A DNA stretch of 44,424 bases, taken from NCBI GenBank assembly GCA_021323165.1, contig JAJTCJ010000016.1:1-44424 (forward strand), read 5' to 3'. The first letter of the stretch is position 1, and every line of letters starts with the position of its first letter. The notes below the pieces were generated by a model. The model saw only the letters and a program-made list of their open reading frames with translations, ran no database searches and had not been told where the DNA came from. The position numbers were made by a program, and so were the translations under genes. This DNA is from Bacteroidota bacterium (GTDB taxonomy: Bacteria; Bacteroidota; Bacteroidia; 2-12-FULL-35-15). Below, one piece after another: positions 16,832 through 36,891 of the stretch.

Positions 16832-16897
16832 CAAAGATGAGTAAGTTCGTACCCATAAATGTTACAGTATTTATGAATTAAGTTGTATTAATCACAC
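16832..16897 (-). promoter_or_regulatory. Regulon promoter box A (YtxH-Mla operon)
   Basis: Read on the minus strand: GTGTGAT, unit TAATACAAC (16890-16882), 12 bases, unit TACTGTAAC (16869-16861), exactly 21 bases, then CATCTTTG (16839-16832) as the -7 element. The YtxH ATG lies 34 bases further on. The architecture is shared with eight other promoters in the window. Confidence 0.85.
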
Positions 16898-16920
16898 CTT
16901 TTACTTGGAGAGGAGGAGAG

Positions 16921-18078
16921 TTAATAGTCTATTAACTTCAATTTCTTGAGAAGTTTCTTCTCTGGTTTTAAAACCGAGAATCTGTAACCGAGATATACCA
17001 TGGCCTTGCCGAAGCTGTAATCAAACGTGGAGTTCGCTTTTCCTCTGAACAGAAAATAATCCATTGTGCCCATTGTCCCAATGAAATATCTGCCATTGTC
17101 ATATCTCAGAGAGATGGTTCCATTGAATTTCCCTGCACCTGCAGACAACTGGTCATAGTCTGAATTATTATTTCGCGTATAAAATGACTGTTCCGCACCT
17201 ACGCCCTGAGTAACCGACACTGTTGCATAAATTCTTTTTTTAATAACCAGCGTGTAGATATATCCAATGTTTAATCCAAGGTTATGAGTATATCCCTTTT
17301 TAATAAGTGAAAGGCTATCGAAATTGCTTTTAAAAGGATCCTCAATAAGAGAGGGATTTCCGCTTGCTGAGAAATATGTATAATAAACACCTATTAATAA
17401 GGAACCGGCACTTTTCCGCTGCTGCTCAACAAAGGCGAATGAATTTCCATAAGAGTATCTTCTGTGATTAACTACATACATAGTATTCGCTCCGATATTT
17501 AATGCAGAAACATCTGAACGGATTGAGTAAGGTTGTTCACTTGTGTATGTTTCGTAGGATCTGGAATTCTTTATATAAAATCCTTTATAATGTTGGAAGA
17601 CAAGGTCAGTTATTATTTTTCTTCCGTAAATATGGAGCTGATAATCACGATAAGTGGTCTTGCCCTTTATATTCTCATTTCCTGAAAACACCTTTACTCC
17701 GGAATTAATAACAAAGCTTGCCCATCGGGAGCTTATACTAATGCCGAGATTATATTGAAGGTTTGGCACGTAGGTTAACTTTTTACCAGTGCGTTCATCG
17801 AATATGCTGAACTTTAAGAATCTTGCTGAAACCGGAATCGTTATAACAAATCTCTTGTAAAAAGATTTAACATAAGCAGTATCATAATTGACCGGGCGCT
17901 CGCGGAAACTAATAAGAGCGAATGTTCTATGAGGCCACATCCATTTTTCCCTAAGAGTTTTGTGCGGTATATCCATAGGCGTTTTAACACCTTGTGATTG
18001 TTTTTCCTGTGACAAAGAAATTAATGCTGAGGTTAACAGGAGGACAAGAAAGAATATTTTTGGAAAGTTAGTTTTCAT
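16921..18078 (-). CDS. DUF4421 family predicted outer-membrane protein
   Basis: The product of about 385 residues has a signal peptide (MKTNFPKIFFLVLLLTSALISLSQ) and a DUF4421-type body that starts with DTAYVKSFYKRFVITIPVSARF. It continues with many alternating beta strands, as in an outer-membrane barrel. Its function is not known. I use ATG 18078, because the in-frame upstream start at 18117 lies inside the terminator hairpin of the preceding gene and would remove the signal peptide from the N-terminus. It follows that terminator by 8 bases and has no regulon box of its own, so expression may depend on read-through from the CsbD operon or on a promoter I did not recognise. Confidence 0.8.
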   Translation of the reverse strand: MKTNFPKIFFLVLLLTSALISLSQEKQSQGVKTPMDIPHKTLREKWMWPHRTFALISFRERPVNYDTAYVKSFYKRFVITIPVSARFLKFSIFDERTGKKLTYVPNLQYNLGISISSRWASFVINSGVKVFSGNENIKGKTTYRDYQLHIYGRKIITDLVFQHYKGFYIKNSRSYETYTSEQPYSIRSDVSALNIGANTMYVVNHRRYSYGNSFAFVEQQRKSAGSLLIGVYYTYFSASGNPSLIEDPFKSNFDSLSLIKKGYTHNLGLNIGYIYTLVIKKRIYATVSVTQGVGAEQSFYTRNNNSDYDQLSAGAGKFNGTISLRYDNGRYFIGTMGTMDYFLFRGKANSTFDYSFGKAMVYLGYRFSVLKPEKKLLKKLKLIDY

Positions 18079-18085
18079 TAATAAA

Positions 18086-18124
18086 AAAGGATGTGCAGCA
18101 GAAGTTATCCGATGCACATCCTTT
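18086..18124 (-). terminator. Terminator (or attenuator) after the Lmo0937-like gene
   Basis: A perfect 12-base inverted repeat (AAAGGATGTGCA at 18124-18113 and TGCACATCCTTT at 18097-18086 on the minus strand) encloses a 15-base loop and is followed by a T-run. It would end the CsbD-to-Lmo0937 operon. The DUF4421 ATG lies 8 bases beyond it, so partial read-through is also possible. Confidence 0.8.
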
Positions 18125-18134
18125 CTACAAAAAT

Positions 18135-18290
18135 TTACATTGGTTTATTGCCGCTGATTACTCTAAAAAGAACAGCAATGACTGCAATTATCAATAATAC
18201 GTGAATGATGCCGCCTGTTTGAAATCCAAGATATCCGATTGCCCAGATAATTACCAGAATAACTGCGATAGTATATAGTAAGTTTCCCAT
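18135..18290 (-). CDS. Lmo0937 family small membrane protein
   Basis: This 51-residue protein begins MGNLLYTIAVILVIIWAIGY and ends in RVISGNKPM. It consists of two hydrophobic helices joined by GFQTGGIIHV. The length and the MGNLLY...IWxIGYxGFxxGGxIHxLLxIAxIAxLxRVI pattern match the Lmo0937 family of tiny membrane proteins that often accompany CsbD and YtxH stress genes. Start ATG 18290 and stop 18135 are clear. It is the last gene of the box-B operon, 29 bases after the small lipoprotein gene, and is followed by a strong hairpin. Its function is unknown. Confidence 0.88.
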   Translation of the reverse strand: MGNLLYTIAVILVIIWAIGYLGFQTGGIIHVLLIIAVIAVLFRVISGNKPM

Positions 18291-18319
18291 TGTTTTATTT
18301 TTTAGTTTTATATTAATTA

Positions 18320-18499
18320 TTAACGTTTACCTTTTTTGTTATGTCCCGGGTTAGTAGTGGCCGGATGATGTGGATTATTCGAGTTTTTTACCCAACCTCT
18401 TTTGCCTCCACCCTGGCCGTGGACACCCACAAAACAAGATGTTGTACTGAACAAAAATCCAACTAAAGTGATAATTAAGACTATTTTATAATTTTTCAT
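18320..18499 (-). CDS. Small predicted lipoprotein, 59 residues
   Basis: The product starts MKNYKIVLIITLVGFLFSTT and continues SC. Cys22 follows a hydrophobic signal and is a plausible lipidation site, although TTSC is a weak lipobox. The mature part is short, Gly/His/Asn/Lys-rich and strongly basic (GGGKRGWVKN, NPHHPATTNPGHNKKGKR). No domain is recognisable. It lies 15 bases after the barrel gene and 29 bases before the Lmo0937 gene in the box-B operon. The tight operon packing and the signal peptide support a real gene. Confidence 0.75.
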   Translation of the reverse strand: MKNYKIVLIITLVGFLFSTTSCFVGVHGQGGGKRGWVKNSNNPHHPATTNPGHNKKGKR

Positions 18500-18514
18500 G
18501 ATTTATTTTTTTAA

Positions 18515-19096: not shown

Positions 19097-19122
19097 AGTT
19101 TTAAATTTTAAGGTATTGATGA

Positions 19123-21634: not shown

Positions 21635-21700
21635 CAAAGATGCGATTGAATGCTTGGGTAAGTATTACATAACTTTGGCTATATGTTACATCATTCACAC
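21635..21700 (-). promoter_or_regulatory. Regulon promoter box B (CsbD operon)
   Basis: On the minus strand: GTGTGAA, unit TGATGTAAC (21693-21685), 12 bases, unit TTATGTAAT (21672-21664), exactly 21 bases, CATCTTTG (21642-21635), then the CsbD ATG 25 bases on. Spacing is identical to the other boxes. Confidence 0.88.
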
Positions 21701-21712
21701 TTTAGCTAGAAA

Positions 21713-22432: not shown

Positions 22433-22498
22433 CAAAGATGGTGGTATAAGAGGCGGGGTTTGTTACACAACTTTCTCTAAAGGTTGCATTATTCACAC
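22433..22498 (-). promoter_or_regulatory. Regulon promoter box C
   Basis: On the minus strand: GTGTGAA, unit TAATGCAAC (22491-22483), 12 bases, unit TTGTGTAAC (22470-22462), exactly 21 bases, CATCTTTG (22440-22433). The next ATG on this strand is 22369, after a 63-base leader. Confidence 0.87.
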
Positions 22499-22529
22499 AT
22501 GAAAGAGATTGCTGAAAATGGTCATAAAA

Positions 22530-22575: not shown

Positions 22576-24513
22576 TTATTTTTTTACGATAATAAATTCC
22601 GTTCTTCTGTTTTTTTGATGTTCTCCTTCTAAGCACTCTGAAAGTATGGGACCTTCACAAGGGCATATACTCGCAAGCTTAGGTTCCCCATATCCTTTAC
22701 CATTTATTCTCGAAGGATTTGAGATTTTTTGTTTGACATAATCGGAAGAGGCCTTTGCTCTACGTTCTGATAATAGCTGATTGTATTCTTTGCTTGATCT
22801 GCAATCAGTATATGAACGGGATTCAACAATCATGTTTGGGTAGGCATTCATGATCTCAATGATCTTATCAAGATCCGGCTCCGCATCTTTTCTGATATCA
22901 GATTTCCCATAATCAAAGAATATGGTGTTTAAAGCAAGAAGTTCAGCGAGATCCTTGCCTTCTGTTATTTCTGAAGCTATTGCTTCAGCTTTAGTAAGCA
23001 AAATTACATCAGCTTTGACAATCTGTTCATTACCATTGGTGTTTGCAACATTATTTCCATCGTTAAATTTTCTTTTCTTGCCTGTCAGTAAATAATTTGT
23101 ATTTGATTCCACTTTAAAGCTGAATGATCCATTTTCCGAAGTTGTAAGTGTATCAAGCACTTTGTTGGATTCGTCAAGAAGACTTATGAATACGTTACCA
23201 AGAACGGTCAAATTACGGTCTTTTGCAAAGCCTTTGATCTGTTTTTGCCCATCTATTCCTATTAAGAAGTCAATAGTATAGATGTCATCATCTCCATTTC
23301 CGCCTGTACGGTTTGAGGAGAGGTAGCCTTTGTTTGTAGTACCGTTTCCTATGGCACCAAAATCGTCATTCATTGTATTTAATGGGTTACCAGGATTTAC
23401 AGGCTTTGCAAATCCTTTACCTGAAGTAAACGACATGAAAATATCCTGTCCTCCCAACCCAAAATGTCCATTTGAAGAAAATAATAATGTACCATTTGAT
23501 TCAACTATGAATGGAAACATTTCGTCCCCTTCTGTATTTATTTTGTTTCCAAGATTTTCGGGTTTAGTCCAAACATTTTTGTCATCTGCAGTTGTTTTGT
23601 AAATATCAGAACCTCCAAATCCTCCAGGCATGTCTGATGTAAAATACATTGTTTTCCCATCGTTACTTAGACAGGGGTGACCTACAGAATATTCAGGATT
23701 GTTAAACGTAAATGGTAAAGGGTCGGACCACTTGTCATCTTTAAATGTGCTGAAGCTGATCTGCAGTTCAACTACCTTATCTTTCGATTTATCATCATTA
23801 TTATTTGTAGTGAATGCCATGAATGTTCCATTGTTGCTAAAACTTGCCGGTCCATCATGCATTTTAGTATTCATGCTTTTGTTGAAATTCTCCGGATCTT
23901 TTAACTGTGTTCCGTCTATCTCAGAAACGTAGAGATTTAGAAATGGAAGGCCTGTCCGGTTATCTTTTCTTTTGATCATTTTTGAAAGCGTTCTGGTTGA
24001 CGCAAACACGATCTTATTCAGGAAATAAGCTGGTGCGAAATCTTTAGCGGCAGAATTGATCTTTAAATTCTCAACTTTATAGCTTCCCTGGTCTTTCGTT
24101 AAGGAATTAAAAGTTGATATATTTTCCATATAACTCTTTGCACGAAGATCTTCTGGCTTAAGTGAATTGAACTTATCCATTGCTTTGTGTGCCTCATCAT
24201 ACTTGCCATTCATTTTTAGGATCATGGCGTAATTAAAATAGTCTTCAGGCAGTATCCCTGATTGTGTAGTTATCAGTTTAGAATATATTATTTCCGATTC
24301 AATATTCTGGTTTGTGTAATGATAGCTTTCGGCTAATCTTCTTTGCCCCTCAACCGATAATGGTTTAGAGTGCTTGTAGGAGTCTATAGCGTTTGTGTAA
24401 TCATATCGGAATGCATACTTATCGCCTTTGATTTCCTTAGCAGACTTTTCCTGTGAAACGGCACTGAGACTTAGTCCGATAAAAAGTATTATTGGAATAT
24501 ATATATTTTTCAT
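22576..24513 (-). CDS. PorE/SprE-like PD40-OmpA protein of the ice-adhesin operon
   Basis: The 645-residue protein has a signal peptide, a TPR-like helical region (about 30-135), and a PD40 propeller (about 160-410) with blades such as GKTMYFTSDMPGGFGGSDIYK and GTLLFSSNGHFGLGGQDIF. A carboxypeptidase-regulatory-like beta domain (about 430-500) follows, then an OmpA C-domain (about 535-645) with TIFFDYGKSDIRKDAEPDLDK and the NRRTEF end. The OmpA loop reads SRSYTDCRSS rather than the usual SHTD. This layout accompanies PorP/SprF in T9SS-linked operons and should anchor the machinery to peptidoglycan. It is 23 bases after PorP/SprF and ends at a strong terminator. Confidence 0.92.
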   Translation of the reverse strand: MKNIYIPIILFIGLSLSAVSQEKSAKEIKGDKYAFRYDYTNAIDSYKHSKPLSVEGQRRLAESYHYTNQNIESEIIYSKLITTQSGILPEDYFNYAMILKMNGKYDEAHKAMDKFNSLKPEDLRAKSYMENISTFNSLTKDQGSYKVENLKINSAAKDFAPAYFLNKIVFASTRTLSKMIKRKDNRTGLPFLNLYVSEIDGTQLKDPENFNKSMNTKMHDGPASFSNNGTFMAFTTNNNDDKSKDKVVELQISFSTFKDDKWSDPLPFTFNNPEYSVGHPCLSNDGKTMYFTSDMPGGFGGSDIYKTTADDKNVWTKPENLGNKINTEGDEMFPFIVESNGTLLFSSNGHFGLGGQDIFMSFTSGKGFAKPVNPGNPLNTMNDDFGAIGNGTTNKGYLSSNRTGGNGDDDIYTIDFLIGIDGQKQIKGFAKDRNLTVLGNVFISLLDESNKVLDTLTTSENGSFSFKVESNTNYLLTGKKRKFNDGNNVANTNGNEQIVKADVILLTKAEAIASEITEGKDLAELLALNTIFFDYGKSDIRKDAEPDLDKIIEIMNAYPNMIVESRSYTDCRSSKEYNQLLSERRAKASSDYVKQKISNPSRINGKGYGEPKLASICPCEGPILSECLEGEHQKNRRTEFIIVKK

Positions 24514-24536
24514 TTTTTAAATGTTATTGAATGAGA

Positions 24537-25475
24537 TTAGAAATATCTTGGTGAATGGATCTGTTTTTTACTTGAGTATATGAAATCATATCTTAAGATC
24601 AGCTCATGGCTGCCTTTGTTATACTTAGATGTATTTAATCCATACGACCAGTCATATGAATAACCTAAGTGTAATTGTTCAGTCAGATCTATGCCTATGA
24701 GTCCGCCAACTGCATCACCGGAACGATACATCGCACCTATAAGTAACTTTTTCATTATTACAAATGATGCGGTTATATCAGCTTGTAATGGAGCAGCAGG
24801 AGTCATTTTCACCAATGTTGTTGGTTTGAACTCCAGGTTATCGGAGATCTTGATCATTCCACCGGCAATAAAGAAATAATGTCTCTGTTCTTTTCCTGTA
24901 AGCGTGCTGCCGTCAGGTAAATTAATTACAGAGTAATTATTTTGTAATAGGTTTGGTACTGAAACACCTGCATAGAAACGTTCAAGGGAATAGTATGCAC
25001 CAACTCCGAAGTTAGGGGTTACACGGTTCCTTATATCAGATTGAAATATTGGATCTGTCTGATTATCCAATGCCAGAGTACTCATGTTTCCCTGGAATAT
25101 ATTAGCGCCTGCACTAAGTCCCAATGCTAACTTAGATTTTTTTGTGAGCTTCATCATATAAGCGAAGTCACCAAAAATTGCTGTATTATTTGTCGGACCG
25201 ATCTTATCGTTTGAAACTGACAATCCCAATCCTATATGCTCATTTCTGATCGGGCTGTGTAAGGTCAACGTTTGTGTAACAGGTGCTCCCTTGAAGTCAA
25301 CCCATTGGGAACGATGCAGCCCCGTAATTGTTAACGCATCCCGGCTTCCTGCATACGCTGGATTTACCGATAGAGTGTTGTACATGTAATGTGTGTACAT
25401 TGGGGCTTGTTGAGCCTGCATAGTTGTGAAGCCTAATGTGGCGACAAGAACTAATGATATATTTAAATTTTTCAT
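24537..25475 (-). CDS. PorP/SprF family type IX secretion membrane protein (ice-adhesin operon)
   Basis: The 312-residue barrel has a signal peptide (to about residue 21, MQAQ) and the family signature QAPMYTHYMYNTLSVNPAYAGS, then HRSQWVDFKGAPVTQ, with a C-terminal SPRYF. It is clearly homologous to the protein at 5001-5891. It lies 25 bases downstream of the large ice-binding CHU_C gene and 23 bases upstream of PD40-OmpA. By analogy with SprF and SprB it is likely to be the dedicated partner for export or attachment of that cargo. The analogy is established knowledge of the family; the pairing here is inference from gene order. Confidence 0.93.
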   Translation of the reverse strand: MKNLNISLVLVATLGFTTMQAQQAPMYTHYMYNTLSVNPAYAGSRDALTITGLHRSQWVDFKGAPVTQTLTLHSPIRNEHIGLGLSVSNDKIGPTNNTAIFGDFAYMMKLTKKSKLALGLSAGANIFQGNMSTLALDNQTDPIFQSDIRNRVTPNFGVGAYYSLERFYAGVSVPNLLQNNYSVINLPDGSTLTGKEQRHYFFIAGGMIKISDNLEFKPTTLVKMTPAAPLQADITASFVIMKKLLIGAMYRSGDAVGGLIGIDLTEQLHLGYSYDWSYGLNTSKYNKGSHELILRYDFIYSSKKQIHSPRYF

Positions 25476-25500
25476 TTTATATTTCTTGTTATGTTAGTTC

Positions 25501-28500: not shown

Positions 28501-29100
28501 AAGTGTACTCATTGTAATTGCTGAGTTATTCGCTACGATAGTACCTTTCATGGAAGTTTGTGTTGCCATGCTGACTAATCCTTCTACTTTCCAGAATACA
28601 TTGCAGGCTTTTGTTCCGTTGATCAGATGTACTTTAGCAGAAGCATTTGTTGCAAATGCTCCCTGGATCTGAAATATAAAAATAGCATTTGGATCACCTT
28701 GTCCATCAAGAGTAAGTCCCAGGTTGAGAGTTGCCGGACTTGCAATTGAGTAAACTCCCGGAGGAAGTATCTGTCCGTTTCCAAGTAAAGGTGCAGGAAA
28801 AAAAGTTGGAACAGCACTGTTTAACTGATTGTATGCTAATGCAAGATCTGCAGTTGCTGCAGCTGTTGCGCCATCATTGTCATGCATTACACCATTCACA
28901 TTTCCAAAACCTGTACTTGAACCGCTGTTTGTTCCTACATTACCTGTGAGGTGTGAGATACCAGTATTGCTGACAGCCCCCGCTGTGGAGAAAAGTACAA
29001 AGCTGGCAGAAGTTCCCAGGTTAGGTGCCTGACCGAAGTTTAATTTCGGGAAGCACAAAATGCCGATTCCTATCAGAATAACTATTAATTTACTTTTCAT
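25501..29100 (-). CDS. Ice-binding adhesin: two DUF3494 domains, Ig-like stalk, DUF11, CHU_C
   Basis: The 1199-residue protein has a signal peptide (to about residue 24). Two DUF3494 ice-binding-like domains cover about 25-225 and 235-440, with the family pattern APNLGTSASFVLFSTAGAVSN, TGNVGTNSG, GVYSIASPATL, IFIFQIQGAF and FWKVEGLVS. A stalk of five YQWRKG-type Ig-like repeats of about 90 residues (about 450-905) follows, then one diverged Ig-like module (about 910-985), a DUF11 domain (about 990-1105) and a CHU_C type B T9SS domain (about 1107-1199; IPEGFSPNGDGINDLF). DUF3494 proteins bind ice in several cold-adapted organisms. Head-stalk-anchor order suggests an ice adhesin. It heads an operon with PorP/SprF and PD40-OmpA under box D. 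Confidence 0.93.
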   Translation of the reverse strand: MKSKLIVILIGIGILCFPKLNFGQAPNLGTSASFVLFSTAGAVSNTGISHLTGNVGTNSGSSTGFGNVNGVMHDNDGATAAATADLALAYNQLNSAVPTFFPAPLLGNGQILPPGVYSIASPATLNLGLTLDGQGDPNAIFIFQIQGAFATNASAKVHLINGTKACNVFWKVEGLVSMATQTSMKGTIVANNSAITMSTLDTLEGRALAIAGAITIDGTLAYTPIGCGSPVLTGPLAPTFGSALCYTLFSSDGPVTNAPITNVTGDIGTNNGTVTGHDPLLVVGIIHGVPDGSTALASSDILNAYNYLNTLPYDIELLYPVQFGNNLVLTPHTYRMNSAVTFTDTLYLDAQGDPNARFVIQINGALSTSTYAKVNLINGAQSQNVYWKVEGAVSINDYSVFRGTIIANNGAISLTTGVYLDGRAFTTTGALATAAVTAIMPPGCGLTASPNITSQPGDQIVCEGSIATFSVTASGAGLTYQWRKGNTNLINGGNISGATTSTLTINPASAADAALNYNVIVSGSSMPNDTSLNVSLTVNPAPFITTQPMDQSVCSGASASLSVAASGTGLTYQWRKGITNLIDGGAISGATTAALTINPFILSDTSSFYNVVITGICGNDTSDNTALMIGMMPVLVVQPMPQTVCEGDSVAISVSVLGSGLTYQWRKGTVNLIDGGSLSGTTTSILIINPVSVSDTAFNYNVIIMGGCSQNDTSINASLAVNSTPLIVNEPTDLVICTGTPATFSVNATGTGITYQWRKGNVNLINGGNISGATTSTLSVNPASISDAATNYNVIITGACSPADTSENVSLIINQTLITSQPINQSVCEGNAATFSVSGSGTGITYQWRKGLTNLVNGGNISGANTSVLSINPANTVDAANNYNVIITGGCSPNDTAINVSLTVTSSPVAVSGSNSPVCSGGTINLTAQTVTGATYSWSSTNGYSSNTQNPIILAAAASDAGTYSLIVSVNGCNSASDSQIVTVSNCSADLSIIKTVNNTYPIYGSNVIFTVVVSNNGPNDASGVVVNDLLQNGYVYISSTTTTGIYDPSTGLWIIGSLNNGVSASLTITATVVEGGNYVNTAFTYSNDTEADMTNNSSSVETTPSDFFIPEGFSPNGDGINDLFVIRGIFNFPSNTFVIFNRWGVKVFESAPYENTWDGKCDKGLQIGGDELPVGTYFYVLDLGNGTPVYKGTIYLNK
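26520..27760 (-). repeat. Five Ig-like repeats in the adhesin stalk
   Basis: Five units of about 270-280 bases (about 90 residues) each contain VCEG or a variant, YQWRKG, then a GG-NISGATTS-like turn and a Y-N-V-I strand. The YQWRKG codons fall near 27651, 27371, 27097, 26826 and 26552, so the period is regular. Such arrays often vary in copy number between strains. Boundaries are approximate. Confidence 0.8.
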
Positions 29101-29117
29101 TTTTTATTTATTTATTT

Positions 29118-29133
29118 GTGAATTTATTTTCAC
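29118..29133 (-). other. 5'-end inverted repeat in the ice-adhesin leader
   Basis: GTGAA and TTCAC arms are separated by six bases, four bases downstream of the -7 element of box D. The element would sit at or very near the mRNA 5' end. Confidence 0.65.
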
Positions 29134-29137
29134 CCGA

Positions 29138-29203
29138 CAAAGATGCGCTGAGAACCAGGCTATGGTGTTACATAACTTTAGTTATATGTTGTATTATTCA
29201 CAC
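29138..29203 (-). promoter_or_regulatory. Regulon promoter box D (ice-adhesin operon)
   Basis: On the minus strand: GTGTGAA, unit TAATACAAC (29196-29188), 12 bases, unit TTATGTAAC (29175-29167), exactly 21 bases, CATCTTTG (29145-29138), then ATG 29100 after a 37-base leader. Confidence 0.9.
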
Positions 29204-29220
29204 ATTGGAAAAAAACAAAA

Positions 29221-29247
29221 CGCTCATTACATTTCTGTAAATGAGCG
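29221..29247 (-). terminator. Terminator of the T9SS type A ice-binding gene
   Basis: CGCTCATT pairs with AATGAGCG and an inner ACA/TGT pair with one bulged base. On the minus strand the hairpin is followed by GTTTTGTTTTTTT. It lies 37 bases after the stop codon at 29285 and directly upstream of box D, insulating the two ice-binding units. Confidence 0.85.
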
Positions 29248-29284
29248 TCTGCCACTAACTAAACTAAACCAATAACAGTTTAGC

Positions 29285-30892
29285 TTACTGTTGTGAAATT
29301 ATCTTTCCTGATTGGATCAATTTTGTATTTGTAATTACTTTATAGAAATATACTCCTGAAGGAAGACTGCTTGTTTCAATTGTAGTCATCTGTTCTGTTA
29401 AATTAGTGGTCATTATTACCGCTCCAAGAATATTGAAGATTTGAAACTCAGCTGTTTTGAATTTATCTTCAAGTTTGATAGTTAAACTAGTTGTAAAGGG
29501 ATTTGGAAATACCGTTACTGCTTCTTCTGCATTCGCTATTTCATTTACACCTGTAGGTGTGCAGATAGTTTGAACTGTTGCAGTAACTGCAGCAGTAGTT
29601 AGAGTGCCTGTGGTTGTTAAAGCACGCCCATTTATTGTTGCACCTGTATTAATGCTGACTGCGCCATTGTTTCCTAGAAATGTTCCGGCTAAAATTGAAT
29701 AATCATTGATGTCAATTGCACCATCTACTTTCCAGTATACATTATTCGCCTGTGCGCCATTGATCAGTGCCACTTTTGCATAAGTGCTTGTAGAAAGCGC
29801 TCCGTTGATCTTTATAACGAAGATCGCGTTAGCATTTCCCTGTGCATTAAGATACAACGTGTCTGTAAACACAGTTGCTGCATTTAATAAGTAAGTGTGT
29901 GGTGTAAGAACAAGATTATTACCAAATTGTGCAGGATATAATAATTCAATATCCGTTGGCAATGTATTTAAATAAGTGTAAGCATTTAAAAGATCTGATG
30001 CAGCAGCTGCCGTTGATCCATCTGGAATTGGGTGTATCATACCTGTTACATTCAATGAATTGAATCCTGTAGTTAAGCCAACATTTGTTCCGATATCTCC
30101 GGTTGCATAAGAGACACCTGAATTAGTTACAGCTCCGTCAGCAGAAAATAATGCATAACATTCAATTGTTCCTAAATTAGGTGCCATTGGCCCTGTTAAT
30201 GTTGGGCTGCCACAACCAATTGGAGTGTAAACAAGAACTCCGTCAACGGTCACTGCTCCTGCAGTTGAAAGTGCTCTTCCTTCAAGTGTATCATTTGTTG
30301 TCATATTAATTGCTGCATTGTTTGCAACAATGGTCCCTTTCATAGAAGTTCCCGGTGCTATGCTTACAAGACCTTCAACTTTCCAAAATACGTTACATGC
30401 TTTAGCATTATTCAAGAGTTTCACCTTTGTATTTGCATTTGCAGAAAGAGATCCCTGGATCTGAAACACAAAAGATGCATTTGGATTACCCTGAGCATTT
30501 AGAAATAAGTTTAAGTTCATAACTGTTGCTCCGGATACTGAATAAACTCCCGGAGTTAAAGTATCACCATTACCTAATAAGGGCGCAAGGAAGAAAGTAG
30601 GAGTCGCACTGTTTAATTGATTATACGCAATAAGTAGATCTGCCGCTGCTTGAGCACTTACAAGATCCTGATCATGCATTCCGCCATTAACATTACCAAA
30701 TCCTGTGCTCGATCCGCTGTTAGAACCTACATTTCCGGTAATATGAGTGATTCCGTTATTAGTTACAGCACCGTTAGTTGTGAAAAGTGCAAAGTTAACA
30801 GTAGAACCAAGATTTGGTGCCTGTGCAAATGTAACAGCTGGCGCGATAATCAGCATGGCAGCAGAGAATGTTTTAAGTAGTTTAGTTTTCAT
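29285..30892 (-). CDS. Ice-binding protein: two DUF3494 domains and T9SS type A sorting domain
   Basis: The 535-residue protein has a signal peptide (to about residue 23), two DUF3494 domains (about 24-225 and 232-440) and a Por-type (type A) T9SS sorting domain (about 455-535; VTVFPNPFTTSLTIKLED and the SGVYFYKV strand). The two heads are very similar to the two heads of the adhesin at 25501-29100, block for block, including APNLG, GFGNVNG, CNVFWKVEGLVS and LVLTPHTY. The pair is therefore a relatively recent duplication that swapped its C-terminal anchor. It is monocistronic, between box E and its own terminator. It probably binds ice at or near the surface; ice binding is inferred from the family. 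Confidence 0.93.
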   Translation of the reverse strand: MKTKLLKTFSAAMLIIAPAVTFAQAPNLGSTVNFALFTTNGAVTNNGITHITGNVGSNSGSSTGFGNVNGGMHDQDLVSAQAAADLLIAYNQLNSATPTFFLAPLLGNGDTLTPGVYSVSGATVMNLNLFLNAQGNPNASFVFQIQGSLSANANTKVKLLNNAKACNVFWKVEGLVSIAPGTSMKGTIVANNAAINMTTNDTLEGRALSTAGAVTVDGVLVYTPIGCGSPTLTGPMAPNLGTIECYALFSADGAVTNSGVSYATGDIGTNVGLTTGFNSLNVTGMIHPIPDGSTAAAASDLLNAYTYLNTLPTDIELLYPAQFGNNLVLTPHTYLLNAATVFTDTLYLNAQGNANAIFVIKINGALSTSTYAKVALINGAQANNVYWKVDGAIDINDYSILAGTFLGNNGAVSINTGATINGRALTTTGTLTTAAVTATVQTICTPTGVNEIANAEEAVTVFPNPFTTSLTIKLEDKFKTAEFQIFNILGAVIMTTNLTEQMTTIETSSLPSGVYFYKVITNTKLIQSGKIISQQ

Positions 30893-30908
30893 AGTTGTAT
30901 TTTTTTTT

Positions 30909-30924
30909 GTGAATTAATTTTCAC
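30909..30924 (-). other. 5'-end inverted repeat in the type A ice-binding gene leader
   Basis: GTGAA and TTCAC arms lie six bases apart, four bases downstream of the -7 element of box E, the same geometry as at box D. Confidence 0.65.
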
Positions 30925-30928
30925 GATG

Positions 30929-30994
30929 CAAAGATGGCGCATTCAAAGTGCCGGACTGTTACATAACTATTAAATAGAGTTATATAATTCACAC
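30929..30994 (-). promoter_or_regulatory. Regulon promoter box E
   Basis: On the minus strand: GTGTGAA, unit TTATATAAC (30987-30979), 12 bases, unit TTATGTAAC (30966-30958), exactly 21 bases, CATCTTTG (30936-30929), then ATG 30892 after 36 bases. It is the best match to the shared consensus. Confidence 0.9.
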
Positions 30995-31008
30995 TCTTGA
31001 TAATAAAA

Positions 31009-31041
31009 AAAAAGCGTGTTATCATTGATAACACGCTTTTT
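31009..31041 (-). terminator. Terminator of the lipoprotein ice-binding gene
   Basis: AAAAAGCGTGTTATC pairs perfectly with GATAACACGCTTTTT across a three-base loop, with T-runs on both sides. It lies 18 bases after the stop at 31060 and just upstream of box E. Confidence 0.93.
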
Positions 31042-31059
31042 TATTTTAATCTTTTGATA

Positions 31060-31812
31060 TTATTCTTTTACAATAGTATTGCCTGCCATTACAACAGCTC
31101 CTGTTCTTGCCAGCGCTCTTCCATTAAGTCGTGCACCAGTATTTAAAGTGATGGACTGCATTGCAAGAACAGTTCCTTTAAATACAGATGTTGTTCCGAA
31201 TGTTGCAGATGTTCCAACCTGCCAGAAAATGTTAGAAGCTAAGGCACCACCGCTCAGAATTACTTTTCTTCCTGAAGTTGTTGTTAGTGTCGATGCTATC
31301 TGAATAATAAATATTGCTCCGGGATTTCCTTTTGCATCAAAAGTTACATCACCTGAAGAAACTGCAAGTGAAGAAGTTGATTTATAAAGTCCGGGTGTTA
31401 GAGTAAGGCCTCCGATATTACCAGATAGAGTAACAATGTCAGTAGCTGTTCTTCCGGCAGCATCATTATATGCAGCAGTAAGATCAAGTTTTGCCTGATT
31501 TGCAATCGCATCATTGATGTGCTGTGTTCCAACAAGAATTCCCGGAGGGAAGCCCCCTATTGAAGTGCCCGGACTTAAGCCCATATCACCTGTGACATTT
31601 GTTGAGCCTGTATTACTTATTGATGATCCTGCAAGAATAGCAAGGCTGGCTGCACCGCCCATTGCGACATTTCCTTGTACTGTTGTTTGTAATGGTATTG
31701 ACTGAAGTATCGGTGCAGGTGATGAAACTCCGTTTTCTTCTTTTTTACAAGAAGCAACAAATACTATTGACAGGATTGTAAAGGCTGATAAAATTAATTT
31801 TGTCTTTTTCAT
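31060..31812 (-). CDS. Ice-binding lipoprotein with one DUF3494 domain
   Basis: The 250-residue protein starts MKKTKLILSAFTILSIVFVA followed by SC, a lipoprotein signal with Cys22 as the lipidation site. After a short linker, one complete DUF3494 domain fills about 50-250. It has the canonical pieces SNTGSTNVTGDMGLSPGTSI, AYNDAAGRT, GLTLTPGLYKSTSSLAV, FIIQIASTLTTTSG, IFWQVGTSATFG and NGRALARTGAV. It is closer to classical single-domain ice-binding proteins than the two neighbours are. I use ATG 31812; the longer frame would need TTG 31839. The gene is monocistronic between box F and a strong terminator. Attachment to a membrane by lipid is inferred from the signal. Confidence 0.93.
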   Translation of the reverse strand: MKKTKLILSAFTILSIVFVASCKKEENGVSSPAPILQSIPLQTTVQGNVAMGGAASLAILAGSSISNTGSTNVTGDMGLSPGTSIGGFPPGILVGTQHINDAIANQAKLDLTAAYNDAAGRTATDIVTLSGNIGGLTLTPGLYKSTSSLAVSSGDVTFDAKGNPGAIFIIQIASTLTTTSGRKVILSGGALASNIFWQVGTSATFGTTSVFKGTVLAMQSITLNTGARLNGRALARTGAVVMAGNTIVKE

Positions 31813-31860
31813 TTTGGTTTTTGTTTTAGTATTAAACAAATAAATTATTTTAAGTTTAAT

Positions 31861-31875: not shown

Positions 31876-31878
31876 GAA

Positions 31879-31944
31879 CAAAGGTGAGATATAAGGTCTC
31901 GCTAATTGTTATATAACTATCCTAATAAGTTATATAATTCACAG
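31879..31944 (-). promoter_or_regulatory. Regulon promoter box F
   Basis: On the minus strand: CTGTGAA, unit TTATATAAC (31937-31929), 12 bases, unit TTATATAAC (31916-31908), exactly 21 bases, CACCTTTG (31886-31879), then ATG 31812 after 66 bases. Confidence 0.88.
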
Positions 31945-31995
31945 TAAACGATTAAATAATGAGATAGGCTGTGCAGTAGAACAAAAGCGAGGAAA

Positions 31996-32334
31996 TTATA
32001 AACTGGAATTCGTATTCTCTTGTGTTTCCAGGTTCGTCATAAAAGTCATGAGATCTTTTGTGAAGGCATCAAGTGTAACGGCAGAAGTTTGCAAATAATC
32101 CACCAGTTTTAATGTTTCTTCTGTTGTGTTTTTAGATGTTTTAATAAGGCTGGAGATGCCTATAATATTAGCAACTGGCTGCCTTATGTTATGAGAGATC
32201 ATGAACATCATCTTTTTAATTCCGCTTAAAAGGTCGTTTTTAGAGTCGACCAGTTGCTTATTTGTTTTTAACATTCTGGAAATATTTTTTTCCAATAATA
32301 CATTAAGTGCGAATATTTCGGTGTTCGTTTTCAT
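31996..32334 (-). CDS. Stand-alone histidine kinase dimerisation/phospho-acceptor (HisKA) protein
   Basis: The 112-residue protein is helical and contains an H-box FMISHNIRQPVANIIG with phospho-acceptor His48. A second helix, ETLKLVDYLQTSAVTLDAFTKDLMTFM, completes a dimerisation hairpin. No ATP-binding HATPase domain follows: the frame stops 64 residues after the His, and no such sequence lies downstream in any frame I examined. It may serve as a phosphotransfer or dimer partner for the hybrid kinase nearby. The start is ATG 32334; longer frames need TTG. A weak copy of the regulon box (G) lies immediately upstream, which would give a nearly leaderless mRNA. Confidence 0.78.
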   Translation of the reverse strand: MKTNTEIFALNVLLEKNISRMLKTNKQLVDSKNDLLSGIKKMMFMISHNIRQPVANIIGISSLIKTSKNTTEETLKLVDYLQTSAVTLDAFTKDLMTFMTNLETQENTNSSL

Positions 32335-32338
32335 TTGG

Positions 32339-32404
32339 TAAAGAACGGACTTTTGGGTGGGGAAAGTGTTACACAATATTAATAATAACTTACAATATTA
32401 TTTT
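32339..32404 (-). promoter_or_regulatory. Weak regulon promoter box G
   Basis: On the minus strand: unit TATTGTAAG (32397-32389), 12 bases, unit TTGTGTAAC (32376-32368), exactly 21 bases, then GTTCTTTA (32346-32339) in place of CATCTTTG. The GTGTGAA part is missing. The spacing is exact, but the -7 match is poor and ends 4 bases before ATG 32334. Confidence 0.5.
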
Positions 32405-32423
32405 AATAGATGACCCTATCAAA

Positions 32424-32858
32424 TTACATTCTTTCCATATACCAGCTTAGCTCTTTTTCCATCTTTTGATATTGTAAAATAGTTGCAATGATTTTCTGTA
32501 AACGCATGAAAGCCGTTTCACTTTTAACCACATAATCAAATGCTTTGTGATGCATACAATTTACTGCTACATCTATTTTGTCCTGAGAAGATAACATGAT
32601 TACAGGAATATTCGCATTGAATGCTTTCACCTTATCAAGTGTTTCTATACCATTCATTGCGTGTTTATCTATACCATCCAAATGGTAATCAAGAACGATA
32701 ACATCTGGCTTGGAGCTGAGATTTTCTATACACAGCTCTCCTGTTGCAAATGTTTCTACAATAAATTGTTCATGTTCAAGAAATTCTAACTGCATTGATT
32801 TAAGCAGTAAGGCATCGTCATCTACTAAAAATATTTTTGTTTTAGGTTCGGTTTTCAT
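32424..32858 (-). CDS. Single-domain response regulator (receiver only)
   Basis: The 144-residue protein is one receiver domain: acidic pocket DDD (13-15), phospho-acceptor Asp57 in VIVLDYHLDG, SS at the Thr/Ser switch (IPVIMLSSQD) and Lys in YVVKSE near 112. There is no DNA-binding or enzymatic output, only a short helical tail. Its ATG overlaps the stop of the hybrid kinase by four bases (ATGA), so it is translationally coupled to it. It should be a phosphorelay intermediate or a protein-protein output. A slightly extended loop after the phospho-acceptor (DGIDKHAMNG) is unusual and is shared in shorter form by the receiver at 36297. Confidence 0.9.
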   Translation of the reverse strand: MKTEPKTKIFLVDDDALLLKSMQLEFLEHEQFIVETFATGELCIENLSSKPDVIVLDYHLDGIDKHAMNGIETLDKVKAFNANIPVIMLSSQDKIDVAVNCMHHKAFDYVVKSETAFMRLQKIIATILQYQKMEKELSWYMERM

Positions 32859-35566
32859 TTTACTGTATTTTTAAAATTGCTATATTCTAATTTAAGTTCC
32901 TGACAAGCTTGAGTGCAGACTTTTTCCAGCTGAAGTACAAGTGAAGGGATCTGATTTGTTTGTTCCTGTGTGCTGGCATACTCCTGCACTTTTTTAGCCA
33001 TGTGTTCATATTCAGAAGTGATTCCCATAATTGAAAATGAAGGGATCATTTTATGTACTGACGCATGGAGTGCCTTCCAGTCTTTATCTTTTAATCCGGT
33101 TTTCATTGAAGCAATTAAAGGAGGTGTCTGTTCAAGATAAAGTGTGATCATTTCCATCATTAGCGTTGGATTTGATTTTGTCCGTTGCATTAAATAATTC
33201 AGATTGGTACATTTCTCCTGTGGAAAATCGGTTTTCTCATTTTCTAATGAATCTTTTTTATCATTTTGATGATCCTGCTTTTTGAGGTATTTGATAATCT
33301 TACTATATAGTAATTTATCATCTATAGGTTTTGATATATAATCATTCATCCCTACAGCCTTGCACTTTTCTACATCAACAGTGGTTACATCCGCAGTCAG
33401 TGCAATTATGGGGATGTCAGATTTGATTATTTGCCTTATGTGTTCAGTTGCCTCAAAACCATTCATTTCCGGCATCTGAAGGTCCATAAGAATTATATCA
33501 TAATGATTTTGGCCCAGCTTTTCAATTGCGATCCTTCCGTTACTCGCAATTTCCATTTCGAAACCGAAATCCTCTAATAGTGTTTTCATTAATAGTTGAT
33601 TCAAAGCGATGTCTTCAACAACAAGGATCTTAACATTTTTTATTTCGGACTGTAATTGAATTACCAGATCAGTTTCCATTTCTGCTTTGGCTTTTGTTTT
33701 TAGGAATTTTAATACGAATGCAAATGTAGAACCTTCACCAACTTTACTGATTACTTTTATTGATCCACCCTGAGGTTCTACCAACTGTTTCACAATAGCC
33801 AGTCCTAATCCTGTTCCTCCGTAAAGTCGGGATGTACCGCTCGTTGCCTGCTGAAAATCATCAAATATATTTCCGAGTTTATTTTCTGAGATTCCGATTC
33901 CTGTATCTGTTATTGCGAATTCTATACTTACAAATTCTGCTTCCTCTTCTATCTTTTTAACACTTACTGTAATCTTTCCTTCTGAAGTAAATTTCACGGC
34001 ATTGCCAACAAGATTCAGGATTATCTGATGAAGCCTTACTGGATCTCCTACTAATACATCGGGAATAGAACTGTCATATTCTTTTATAAGCTCAAGATTC
34101 TTTTCCTGTATCTTGGTTTCAAACAAATGCAGCATTGCAGAAATGGAGGAAGATAGTTTGAAGGGTACGTGTGCAAAGGTCATTTTACCTGCATCTACTT
34201 TTGCAAGATCGAGGATATCATTGATCAGTACGATCAAAGCATCACCTGATATTTTTATGGCATTTAGATATTCCTGCTGCTTAGGATTTAATTCAGTTTT
34301 TAACACCACTTTGGTAAAGCCGATAATTGCATTCATTGGTGTTCTTATCTCATGGCTCATATTGGATAAGAACTGCTGTTTGGATTTTACAGCTGCCTCT
34401 GCTATAAGTGTTGCGGTTTCTGCTTTTATTTTGGCTTCTTCTGCAATCTCTGTTGCCAACTCGGCAAATACTTTAGCTTCTGTAAGCTCCGTGGCTATTC
34501 TTTTCTGCTCAGTCACATCTCGGGCTACAATAACAACACCTAAAACATTTCCGCGATCATCTTTATAAACTGATCCATTGAATAAAACATCTGTAAGCTT
34601 ACCGCCTTTATGTCTTAAAGTAAGCGGTGAATCTGCTACTGATCCTTTTGCGAATACTTCTTGGTAAACCTCACGTGCTTTCTGAGGTTCGGTGAAATAA
34701 TCGAAGAAGTCGGTGCCGGTTAATTTTTCTCGCGCAATCCCTGTGATATTTACAGTGGCTTCATTCATATCCGTGATTTTTCCTTCAGGACTGATGGTCA
34801 CTAAAGGATCAAGGCTGGCTTCAATAAGGCTGAGTGAATATTTAGAAAGAAGTTTTTGTGCTGTAACATCTCTTGCTACAATCACTACTCCTAATACATT
34901 TCCCCTGTCATCTTTATATACTGACCCATTAAATAGTACGTCAGTTAATTTACCATTCTTATGTCTTAATGTTAAAGGAGAATCTGCAACGGAACCTTTG
35001 GCAAATACTTCCTGATAAACTTCACGTGCTTTTTGCGGCTCTGTGAAATAATCGAAGAAGTCGGTACCTGTTAATTTTTCACGTGTGATCCCGGTTATAT
35101 TTACTGTTGCCTGATTCATATCAGTGATCTTTCCTTCTGTGCTGATTGTAACAAGAGGATCAAGGCTGGCTTCAATAAGGCTTAAGGAGTATTTGGAGAG
35201 TAACTTTTGAGCTGTAACATCACGGGCAACGATAACTACTCCTAAAACATTTCCTTTATCGTCTTTGTAAACAGATCCATTAAAAAGAACATCCGTTAGT
35301 TTTCCTTCTTTATGTCTTAATGTAAGAGGAGAATCTGCAACGGAACCTTTTGCAAACACTTCCTGATAAACTTCTCTGGCTTTTTGAGGTTCTGTGAAAT
35401 AATCGAAGAAGTCGGTACCGGTTAATTTTTCACGGGAAATCCCTGTGATGTTTGCCGTGGCTTCATTCATATCGGTAATCTTTCCTTCAGTATTAATTGT
35501 TACTAAAGGATCCAGACTGGCTTCGATAAGACTTCTGGCATAACGTGATTCTTTGTTGGTTTCCAT
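32855..35566 (-). CDS. Soluble hybrid histidine kinase: three PAS, HisKA, HATPase, receiver, Hpt
   Basis: The 903-residue protein has no transmembrane helix or signal. Three nearly identical PAS domains (117-residue period; 12-128, 129-245, 246-355) are followed by a coiled Ala/Glu linker, HisKA with His405 (FLSNMSHEIRTPMNAIIG), HATPase (about 455-635; DTGIGISENKLG, GTGLGLAIVKQL), a receiver with Asp695 (DIILMDLQMPEMNG) and a C-terminal Hpt with His838 (HASVHKMIPSF). All four modules needed for a His-Asp-His relay are present. It overlaps the upstream AraC gene at TAATG and the downstream receiver at ATGA, so one mRNA from box H carries regulator, kinase and receiver. It should sense a cytoplasmic cue. 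Confidence 0.95.
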   Translation of the reverse strand: METNKESRYARSLIEASLDPLVTINTEGKITDMNEATANITGISREKLTGTDFFDYFTEPQKAREVYQEVFAKGSVADSPLTLRHKEGKLTDVLFNGSVYKDDKGNVLGVVIVARDVTAQKLLSKYSLSLIEASLDPLVTISTEGKITDMNQATVNITGITREKLTGTDFFDYFTEPQKAREVYQEVFAKGSVADSPLTLRHKNGKLTDVLFNGSVYKDDRGNVLGVVIVARDVTAQKLLSKYSLSLIEASLDPLVTISPEGKITDMNEATVNITGIAREKLTGTDFFDYFTEPQKAREVYQEVFAKGSVADSPLTLRHKGGKLTDVLFNGSVYKDDRGNVLGVVIVARDVTEQKRIATELTEAKVFAELATEIAEEAKIKAETATLIAEAAVKSKQQFLSNMSHEIRTPMNAIIGFTKVVLKTELNPKQQEYLNAIKISGDALIVLINDILDLAKVDAGKMTFAHVPFKLSSSISAMLHLFETKIQEKNLELIKEYDSSIPDVLVGDPVRLHQIILNLVGNAVKFTSEGKITVSVKKIEEEAEFVSIEFAITDTGIGISENKLGNIFDDFQQATSGTSRLYGGTGLGLAIVKQLVEPQGGSIKVISKVGEGSTFAFVLKFLKTKAKAEMETDLVIQLQSEIKNVKILVVEDIALNQLLMKTLLEDFGFEMEIASNGRIAIEKLGQNHYDIILMDLQMPEMNGFEATEHIRQIIKSDIPIIALTADVTTVDVEKCKAVGMNDYISKPIDDKLLYSKIIKYLKKQDHQNDKKDSLENEKTDFPQEKCTNLNYLMQRTKSNPTLMMEMITLYLEQTPPLIASMKTGLKDKDWKALHASVHKMIPSFSIMGITSEYEHMAKKVQEYASTQEQTNQIPSLVLQLEKVCTQACQELKLEYSNFKNTVK
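34500..35533 (-). repeat. Tandem near-identical PAS repeats, 351-base period
   Basis: Units start at 35533, 35182 and 34831 on the minus strand. Each begins SLIEASLDPLVTI and ends near VIVARDVT. Only a few residues differ between copies (for example NTEG/STEG/SPEG and HKEG/HKNG/HKGG), and the DNA differs mostly at silent positions. This looks like internal duplication followed by purifying selection. Confidence 0.9.
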
Positions 35567-36153
35567 TAATTTTTATCTGAACATTTTGAACTTCCTATTT
35601 CTTCTATCGGCATTCTTCTCTGGTCTTTTAATTTTTTAAAATGTGAAGGGGAAAGTCCGGTTACCTTTTTAAACTGATTTGAAAGATGAGCTACACTGCT
35701 GTAATTCATTTTCCAGGCGATCTCTGTAATGTTAAGCTCACCATAGATCATAAGTTCTTTAATGCGTTCTATTTTATGACAGATAATGAATTGTTCGATC
35801 GTGGTACCCTGTACTTCGGAAAATAAATTGGCCATGTATGTATAATCATGGTTTAATTTTTCACTCAGGTAATCAGAGAAATTTATTTTTATAACTTCAT
35901 CTGCATGATGGACCATATCAATAATTACGTTTTTGATCTTTTCAATCAAAACAGCTCTTTTATCATCCATCAGTTCCAGCCCGGAACATAACAAAGCAGC
36001 TTTTAAATCGTCACGTTGCTCAAGGGAGATGTTTTCCATGATCTCAACTTCCCCAAGATCTACTACAATAAAGTGGAGACCTTGTTTCCTGAGTTCTTCT
36101 TTCACCACTATTTTACAGCGGGTACTGACCATGTATTTTATGTATAATTTCAA
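35566..36153 (-). CDS. AraC family regulator 1 (HMA-like N-domain), first gene of the kinase operon
   Basis: The 195-residue protein has a C-terminal AraC-type double helix-turn-helix (about 95-190; ITEIAWKMNYSSVAHLSNQFKKVTGLSPSHFKKLK). Its short N-terminal domain (1-90) contains IKYMVSTRCKIVVKEEL and reads like a small ferredoxin-like or HMA-like fold. It is a paralogue of 36886-37446. I choose TTG 36153: it aligns with the paralogue's MKLYIKYM start and has AAAGGA seven bases upstream. A longer frame from TTG 36177 would start inside the -7 element of box H. The box in front suggests autoregulation. It is a good candidate for binding the regulon boxes; this is inference. Confidence 0.88.
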   Translation of the reverse strand: MKLYIKYMVSTRCKIVVKEELRKQGLHFIVVDLGEVEIMENISLEQRDDLKAALLCSGLELMDDKRAVLIEKIKNVIIDMVHHADEVIKINFSDYLSEKLNHDYTYMANLFSEVQGTTIEQFIICHKIERIKELMIYGELNITEIAWKMNYSSVAHLSNQFKKVTGLSPSHFKKLKDQRRMPIEEIGSSKCSDKN

Positions 36154-36174
36154 GAGATTATCCTTTAGTTTATA

Positions 36175-36240
36175 CAAAGGTGGTGAATTATAGGTAGGGA
36201 TGAGTTATACAAGTCCGGCCGAATGTTGTATAAATCCCAT
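36175..36240 (-). promoter_or_regulatory. Regulon promoter box H (AraC1-kinase-receiver operon)
   Basis: On the minus strand: ATGGGAT, unit TTATACAAC (36233-36225), 12 bases, unit TTGTATAAC (36212-36204), exactly 21 bases, CACCTTTG (36182-36175), then TTG 36153 after 21 bases. Here the two units also form an inverted repeat (TTATACAA and TTGTATAA). Confidence 0.82.
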
Positions 36241-36257
36241 GTTTTTTTAAAAACAAA

Positions 36258-36280
36258 GGCACTCTGAATATCAGAGTGCC
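36258..36280 (-). terminator. Terminator of the membrane-anchored receiver gene
   Basis: GGCACTCTGA pairs perfectly with TCAGAGTGCC across a three-base loop, with TTTGTTTTT following on the minus strand. It lies 16 bases after the stop at 36297. Confidence 0.88.
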
Positions 36281-36296
36281 CAGAAAATATTTATTG

Positions 36297-36788
36297 TTAT
36301 TTCATCATCTGGAGTGCAGCATACACAATAATTCCCATTGTGGTAAAGGTTAACAGGAAGGTAGCCATAAACTTGGAAACCCCGAATTCTCTAACCATTA
36401 ACCGAATAGGTTCTGTAATGATCATTGTTAGAAGCTTGCTCAACTTACTCCAGGATCCTGATCCTTTCACTATATAATCTTTGGCTCCGTTTCTGAAAGA
36501 TTCAATCGCCAGCCCTATATCTTCATTGCTTGAAAGCATGATCACTTCTGTTTTAGGATTGATGGATTTGATTGATTTAAGCACCTCAAGTCCGTTCTCA
36601 CCTTCCATAAAGTAATCAAGAATAACAATATTGGTTTCTTTATCCACTTTTTCAAGACAGCTTTTGCCATCATTAAAAGTTGAAACACGAACGCTCTGAC
36701 CGAATTTATTTTGTAGATAGTGTTTAAGGTCGGTGACCATTAATTTGTTGTCATCAACAATGAATAGATTTAATCCCTGAGTTTCCAT
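36297..36788 (-). CDS. Response regulator receiver with C-terminal transmembrane helix
   Basis: The 163-residue protein is a receiver domain (DD at 12-13, phospho-acceptor Asp58 in IVILDYFMEG, switch Ser in VIMLSSNED, Lys108 in YIVKG). An amphipathic linker (about 112-136; LTMIITEPIRLMVREFG) and a single hydrophobic helix (about 138-160; FMATFLLTFTTMGIIVYAAL) ending MMK follow. A membrane-tethered receiver with no output domain is unusual: it would titrate phosphate or recruit partners to the inner membrane. It is a single-gene unit between box I and a terminator. ATG 36788 is clear. Confidence 0.88.
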   Translation of the reverse strand: METQGLNLFIVDDNKLMVTDLKHYLQNKFGQSVRVSTFNDGKSCLEKVDKETNIVILDYFMEGENGLEVLKSIKSINPKTEVIMLSSNEDIGLAIESFRNGAKDYIVKGSGSWSKLSKLLTMIITEPIRLMVREFGVSKFMATFLLTFTTMGIIVYAALQMMK

Positions 36789-36825
36789 TTGTTACCTTTT
36801 TAATTATTTGTTTAATTCTGTGGGA

Positions 36826-36891
36826 CAAATGTGAGGACTTACTTTTCTGAAAGCATTATATAGTTATTGAAATAAATTACATATTTCACAC
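36826..36891 (-). promoter_or_regulatory. Regulon promoter box I (membrane-anchored receiver)
   Basis: On the minus strand: GTGTGAA, unit ATATGTAAT (36884-36876), 12 bases, unit CTATATAAT (36863-36855), exactly 21 bases, CACATTTG (36833-36826), then ATG 36788 after 37 bases. The first bases overlap the stop codon end of the AraC2 gene. Confidence 0.82.

Follow-up and report, generated by a model that had tools for sequence, protein, structure and literature searches.

The stretch of DNA analysed here (the window) comprises positions 1 to 44,424 of contig JAJTCJ010000016.1 from a Bacteroidota bacterium. Its minus strand carries nine promoter-like boxes (A to I), which in full form consist of a short lead, two 9-base units (unit 1 and unit 2) and a -7 element, interspersed with envelope and ice-binding genes and accompanied by genes for AraC-type regulators and a histidine kinase. 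The first-pass annotation had described the boxes as a single rigid repeat architecture that defines a contiguous regulon. It placed all nine correctly, each start being the low end of the box, which is the last base of the -7 element.

Box A (16832..16898, minus strand, as are all features in this and the next paragraph; E 1.4e-10 with the 60-site model in the source genome, as for the E values that follow) is the predicted promoter of a YtxH - Holin_3_6 - 128 amino acid (aa) - AI-2E - MlaE - MlaF - MlaD - 213 aa run (16797 down to 11619), which includes Mla transporter, AI-2E, holin-like and YtxH genes. Box B (21635..21701; E 1.5e-13) is the predicted promoter of a CsbD-like gene followed by an OMP/OmpA/DUF4421 run. 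The 83 aa product of the CsbD-like gene weakly matches PRK10428, an NCBI family also matched by CsbD-type proteins that are encoded behind sites at other loci. Box C (22433..22499; E 5.7e-12) would serve a 218 aa secreted-looking protein. Boxes D (29138..29204; E 6.6e-12), E (30929..30995; E 3.1e-12) and F (31879..31945; E 1.3e-11) are the predicted promoters, respectively, of an ice-binding/CHU_C (1199 aa) - PorP/SprF - OmpA/PD40 run, a 535 aa ice-binding protein and a 259 aa lipoprotein-like ice-binding protein. The genes behind these three boxes, of ice-binding, type IX secretion system (T9SS) tail, PorP and OmpA kinds, occupy 22576..31839.

The regulatory genes lie at the far end of the block. 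Box H (36175..36241; E 9.6e-8) directly precedes the gene for AraC1 (35566..36153; HTH_18/HTH_AraC; likely TTG start), an S-type (SxxC) AraC-type regulator and the proposed activator, and is a putative autoregulation site. AraC1 is adjoined by a hybrid histidine kinase (32855..35566; three PAS domains, HisKA, HATPase and receiver) with three very similar PAS repeats, and a receiver-only response regulator of 144 aa follows (32424..32858). Box I (36826..36892; E 1.1e-9) is the predicted promoter of a 163 aa protein with a receiver domain and a hydrophobic C-terminal segment (36297..36788), and AraC2, an S-type paralogue 63% identical to AraC1, is encoded at 36886..37446. Box G (32339..32405; partial match, E 8.8e-6) is a weak site before a HisKA-only gene (31996..32376; likely ATG start near 32340). 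The product of this last gene, which ends the kinase operon, has no ATPase domain, and a tblastn homologue was found in one of 80 relatives' loci.

In eight of the nine boxes (A to F, H and I) unit 2 starts exactly 21 bases from the start of unit 1, and the gap between unit 2 and the 8-base CANNTTTG is likewise exactly 21 bases. The rigid spacing reported earlier therefore stands for these eight; box G has the units but not the full pattern. A test pattern of the units and CANNTTTG, formulated after the boxes had been seen, gave eight matches on the minus strand of the window, none on the plus strand and none in 60 second-order Markov sequences of window length, in line with the earlier remark that such constancy is not expected by chance. 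With a leave-one-out matrix, each of the eight boxes ranked within the top eight positions of the window on both strands. The lead and the unit consensus were drawn too strictly: GTGTGAA is found in B, C, D, E and I, while A has GTGTGAT, F has CTGTGAA and H has ATGGGAT; box B has TGATGTAAC as unit 1 and box I has ATATGTAAT, and unit 2 is variable too (TACTGTAAC in A). Box G is the weakest, as first described, with both units and their 21-base spacing but without the lead and with a poor -7 element, GTTCTTTA. Its leave-one-out score is 1.1 bits (rank 15 in the window). The 60-site model, matching over model positions 7-55 only, nevertheless scores its units at E 8.8e-6 across the whole genome, so that box G is best regarded as a weak site and not as mere noise. 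A mobile repeat or recent duplication was ruled out as the source of the boxes, which share only the units, the lead and the -7 element and stand before mostly unrelated genes. The shared rigid two-part site is thus confirmed and is strongly non-random.

The source genome (4.02 Mb in 171 contigs, 89.6% complete) was scanned with an 8-box model and with the 60-site model. The former ranked the eight window boxes first (E 5e-14 to 1.3e-10), followed by five that are located on other contigs (E 1.6e-6 to 2.2e-3), all remaining matches having E > 0.4. The latter returned the same 13 sites, the five outside the block at E 1.8e-7 to 1.8e-4, together with the box G units, and its next matches were at E 0.03 or worse. 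Hence, eight conforming boxes do form a block, but the regulon extends beyond this contiguous block. The five outside sites precede a fourth ice-binding gene, a TPR/OmpA-like gene, a response regulator gene and two genes for small products, one a 64 aa membrane protein and the other a lipoprotein; all four ice-binding genes found in the genome have a site. Neither model reported a box before AraC2. The two AraC genes, whose products were proposed together for binding assays in the first-pass annotation, are therefore not equivalent, as only AraC1 has a box directly in front of its gene.

A genome search with AraC1 and AraC2 identified at least 446 relatives, and the best 80 loci (1.23 Mb) were kept. 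As judged by record titles, these derive from Flavobacteriaceae, Paludibacter, Labilibaculum, Prolixibacteraceae, Chitinophagaceae, Saprospiraceae, Cytophagales and others. A matrix trained solely on the eight window boxes, with the -7 element excluded, found 227 sites of at least 16 bits in these AraC-bearing loci, compared with a mean of 2.0 and a maximum of 9 for 20 column-permuted matrices. Although TTTG was outside the matrix, at 124 of the 227 sites it begins 25 bases past unit 2, and at a further 32 sites 24 bases past it; no other offset in the range 10 to 44 accounts for more than 4 sites. The distance to TTTG is thus not absolutely fixed in the family. When unit spacings of 15 to 27 were tried as a control, each gave 2 to 38 matches against the 227 at 21 bases; spacing 20 gave 7 matches, two of them on 21-spaced sites, and spacing 22 gave two, neither on such a site. 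Spacings 16 (38 matches), 23 (31) and 26 (32) were rejected as exceptions to the 21-base rule, given that 37, 30 and 31 of these matches, respectively, overlie 21-spaced sites; for spacings 16, 18, 19, 23 and 26 together, 121 of 124 matches are 21-spaced sites read out of register on the same strand.

Lowering the cut to 14 bits gave 250 sites in 77 of the 80 loci. Of these, 224 are on the strand of the AraC gene and 43 directly precede that gene, the same placement as box H; the median distance to the start codon is 37 nucleotides. Sixty chosen sites align without gaps. Whole-genome scans of eight genomes behind the loci yielded 4 to 35 matches each (110 in total), and in one genome 35 matches are spread over 11 contigs. 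The motif search of the source genome and its relatives, proposed earlier as a check, thus shows that the pattern recurs at gene starts in many Bacteroidota genomes. The proposal of one regulon under an AraC-type regulator next to RNA polymerase, putatively an activator, is strengthened by these independent genomes.

The open reading frames (ORFs) downstream of the 250 sites were reduced to 176 after dropping sites below 16 bits, sites before AraC genes, sites without an ORF and duplicates; ORF calling was simple, and some first ORFs may be wrong. These first ORFs cluster into families, and Pfam assigned 27 to ice-binding, 13 to CsbD, 10 to OmpA, 7 to DUF5670 (lmo0937), 7 to Cupin_2, at least four to BON and at least three to ferritin-like families. 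Of the 110 matches in the eight genomes, 60 were read downstream, in four genomes, and two of these gave no ORF. They add genes for universal stress protein, OsmC, ferritin-like, DnaJ, MscS, AI-2E, YtxH and BON proteins, some of them being the second or third gene of a run. This content resembles that of general stress regulons, and the site probably marks a large stress-adaptation regulon. In the window itself, two small ORFs were seen by eye at 18118-18514, one of which resembles the small membrane proteins of the lmo0937/DUF5670 kind that are encoded behind sites at other loci.

AraC1 has a C-terminal double helix-turn-helix domain, and its structure model (pLDDT 85.3) gives the N-terminal domain an apparently metallochaperone-like fold, which resembles small metal-binding domains, with SxxC where metal binders have CxxC. 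The Pfam HMA family (PF00403) did not match AraC1 or AraC2 at E 0.001, and the MxCxxC metal site is absent from the S type, which has MVSxRC instead, while a related C type has CxxC. Three types were distinguished among relatives in 20 regions, hand-picked and in several cases chosen for a nearby site: S (YMVSxRC, as here), C (NM[VA]CxxC) and a third with KFD at this position. The source genome encodes two S-type proteins and one of the C type. S10 and C13 are conserved in 79 of 79 relatives (L123, in which the match starts later, being left out), a figure inflated by the use of the peptide patterns MKLYIKY and RCK[IM][VI]VKE in the locus search. The first matched AraC codon is TTG in 35 of 80 relatives, as seems to be the case in AraC1. 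The neighbourhood AraC - kinase - receiver is conserved, the AraC gene usually preceding a PAS hybrid kinase; a kinase match is present in 75 of the 80 loci and adjoins AraC in 70 of 77. Environmental strains with the S-type operon include Flavobacterium psychrotolerans RB1R5 (L060) and Emticicia aquatica CECT 8858 (L098). S-type rows form one group against CxxC rows in two trees (35 of 45 rows and 17 of 26 rows; support 100/99 in each), both of which lack KFD-type rows and had long branches flagged, L254 and L257 being left out of the second.

A scan that ignored the lead found sites of at least 14 bits with 21-base spacing in 5 of 11 C-type regions and 5 of 7 KFD-type regions. The lead ends in GAA or GAT at 33 of 34 unit-picked sites before S-type genes but at only one of 10 (L249) beside CxxC or KFD types. 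Site and AraC type thus change together, which is the best evidence for an AraC protein as the predicted reader of the site. In four C-type regions (L262-L265) the site lies just behind the AraC gene, and the first ORF of at least 110 aa behind it is in all four a heavy-metal P-type ATPase; no PAS hybrid kinase was found among the ORFs read there. Two more sites, with no C-type gene adjoining in the stretch read, precede heavy-metal P-type ATPases as the first (L272) or second (L271) gene. The sites in these six regions, with CxxC AraC relatives in L262-L265, represent a candidate metal regulon. The KFD-type AraC genes of L267-L270 and L273 have a bipartite site before them or before the preceding gene, and of these five stretches, which were read further, four (L267, L269, L270 and L273) contain an AraC - receiver - kinase operon, the one kinase scanned having a CHASE3 domain.

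Among 198 genomes, the AraC family, counted as a whole at E 1e-30 and not as the S type alone, is present in 33 of 34 site-positive genomes compared with 93 overall (Fisher p 8e-12 including the source genome and 1.7e-11 without it, relatedness uncorrected). Of nine genomes with three or more sites, seven have an AraC match at E < 1e-84; the exceptions are G011 and G016, of one genus. G006, the third genome of that genus, is without a site although it has an AraC match, of unread type, at the same level.

In Flavobacterium, according to PMC9723704, the housekeeping -7 element is TAnnTTTG and lies at -12 to -5. If the -7 box is placed accordingly, the lead spans -70 to -64 and the units follow at -63 to -55 (unit 1) and -42 to -34 (unit 2), so that the proximal site would, by position from the predicted start, overlap the -33/-35 region. 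No conserved -33 element was seen in the 60-site alignment. In these sites, which were chosen for TTTG, the -7 box has TTTG and the A of its second position in all 60, and its first base is T in nine.

The boxes are probably binding sites of an S-type AraC activator of class II, which would run its own operon and a set of stress and envelope genes. Its C-terminal domain, with two helix-turn-helix motifs, would bind the two direct-repeat half-sites 21 bases apart. The proximal half-site (about -42 to -34) would replace the -33 element, and the bound activator could make contact with sigma-A RNA polymerase at a -7 box that departs from the consensus. The targets would comprise the operon of the regulator itself (AraC - PAS hybrid kinase - receiver), together with a set of stress-survival genes and genes for cell-surface or envelope change. 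The receiver, the kinase and the putatively autoregulated AraC gene suggest a phosphorelay input. CxxC relatives, in some cases found beside heavy-metal ATPase genes, are the probable ancestors of the S clade, which would since have been tied to the phosphorelay. The broadest version, a master general-stress regulon of environmental Bacteroidota whose AraC activator derives from a metal-sensing relative by exchange of a ligand Cys for Ser and takes its signal from the PAS hybrid kinase and receiver without a sigma factor, is offered tentatively, with confidence somewhat short of even. In this version, the remaining conserved cysteine could be a thiol switch.

Several observations weigh against an S-type activator as the reader of all such sites and against a general stress role. 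The 80 loci were fetched via the AraC gene, so that enrichment of sites near AraC is partly built in, and no site of at least 14 bits was found in 6 of the 11 C-type regions. G011 (9 sites) and G016 (8 sites) possess a CxxC-type relative only, and G192 (2 sites) has no AraC relative at E 1e-8, although the sites of all three have the full lead; the best kinase matches in these three genomes are just 39-42% identical. Either the operon is absent from these assemblies or the sites have another reader. Assemblies may be interrupted around the operon by the similar PAS repeats of the kinase in the genus of G011 and G016, the C-type genes of which lie, as judged by eye, beside frames resembling heavy-metal P-type ATPases. 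Among the 198 genomes, of 92 sites listed outside the source genome at least 36 share a contig with an AraC gene located no more than 30 kb away, with G011:C51 adding one, and 60 of the 93 AraC-bearing genomes have no site at E 0.001. The link between site and AraC is therefore strong but incomplete. The general stress role is predicted from gene content, and genes of the ice-binding and T9SS kinds do not count among the classic stress genes.

The genomes without an S-type AraC bear on the identity of the binding protein. The TGTGA of the lead resembles half of a CRP site, and a CRP/FNR-like or other factor could bind the boxes with AraC merely as a neighbour, a reading to which the three site-bearing genomes without S-type AraC lend some weight. 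However, no conserved inverted partner TCACA was seen in the 60-site alignment, and beside the CxxC and KFD types the 21-base repeat is retained with a different lead (9 of 10 sites), so that the site changes with the AraC type; a factor of this kind is improbable. A fixed two-element promoter with little variation also resembles the motif of an alternative sigma factor, in which GTAAC and CATCTTTG would be the -35-like and -10-like elements. For a sigma factor, two direct repeats 21 bases apart and a lead would be superfluous, the 24-25 bases from unit 2 to TTTG misfit the spacing of about 16-17 bases of extracytoplasmic function (ECF) sigma factors, and the conserved neighbours of the AraC genes are a kinase and a receiver. 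In addition, xAxxTTTG is close to the Flavobacterium housekeeping element (PMC9723704). No sigma factor gene was found among the window proteins scanned, the genomes not having been searched for one, and this explanation is very hard to sustain.

If an AraC protein is the reader, it might instead repress these promoters until released by a signal, given that the site overlaps the -33 region and that a site also precedes the gene of the regulator itself. The lack of a visible conserved -33 element, a first base of the -7 box that is off consensus in 51 of 60 sites, as at activator-dependent promoters, and a fixed helical phasing that suits contact with the polymerase all favour activation, and repression is considered a rather poor candidate. 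The nature of the regulon is less settled. A surface or cold-adaptation programme of ice-binding proteins, T9SS cargo and outer membrane proteins, in place of general stress, would account for ice-binding as the largest class (27 of 176) and for the site at all four ice-binding genes of the source genome. It would not account for the genes of CsbD, ferritin/Dps-like, universal stress, OsmC, BON and DnaJ proteins that follow sites in several genomes, and on balance it appears unlikely, though by no means negligible.

Outside the proposed regulon, the plus strand of the window (2254-11562) carries a PKD/CHU_C - PorP/SprF - PKD/PD40 series, a gene without a Pfam match and then a gene for a Reg_prop/SpoIIE sensor protein.

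Known AraC-type activators provide a precedent for an AraC class II site. At araBAD I1-I2, bound by AraC, and at Pm, bound by XylS, two direct-repeat half-sites are 21 bases apart and the proximal one overlaps the -35 region. The system described here shares the 21-base direct repeats, the proximal half at the -35 region and the AraC-type DNA-binding domain. It differs in the -7 TTTG element of Bacteroidota, in an N-terminal domain that is modelled as metallochaperone-like and not as a sugar-binding cupin, and in a multi-operon regulon linked to a hybrid kinase. The CxxC AraC relatives beside heavy-metal P-type ATPases are homologous proteins with the same 21-base bipartite repeat where a site was found, but have an intact CxxC, no GTGTG lead and a metal ATPase behind the site. 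The general stress regulons of SigB, RpoS and EcfG include CsbD, Dps-like, OsmC, BON, universal stress and small membrane proteins. The genes behind the present sites are of similar kinds, whereas control here would apparently be by an activator on housekeeping-type promoters. No description of the site, this AraC family or the regulon was recognised in the open full-text literature, in which the CxxC type in connection with copper was not searched, and novelty is provisional. The site is thus a known AraC class II theme in a new form, and much wider than the window.

To our knowledge, Bacteroidota have no equivalent of RpoS, SigB or EcfG, and the present analysis offers a candidate regulon and a candidate regulator for the coordination of general stress genes in this phylum. 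Because the rigid site is readable from sequence alone, it allows the regulon to be predicted in many genomes, along with its regulator and promoter starts. AraC types that share one site geometry would further show how a metal-linked regulator can be rewired into a kinase-linked one.

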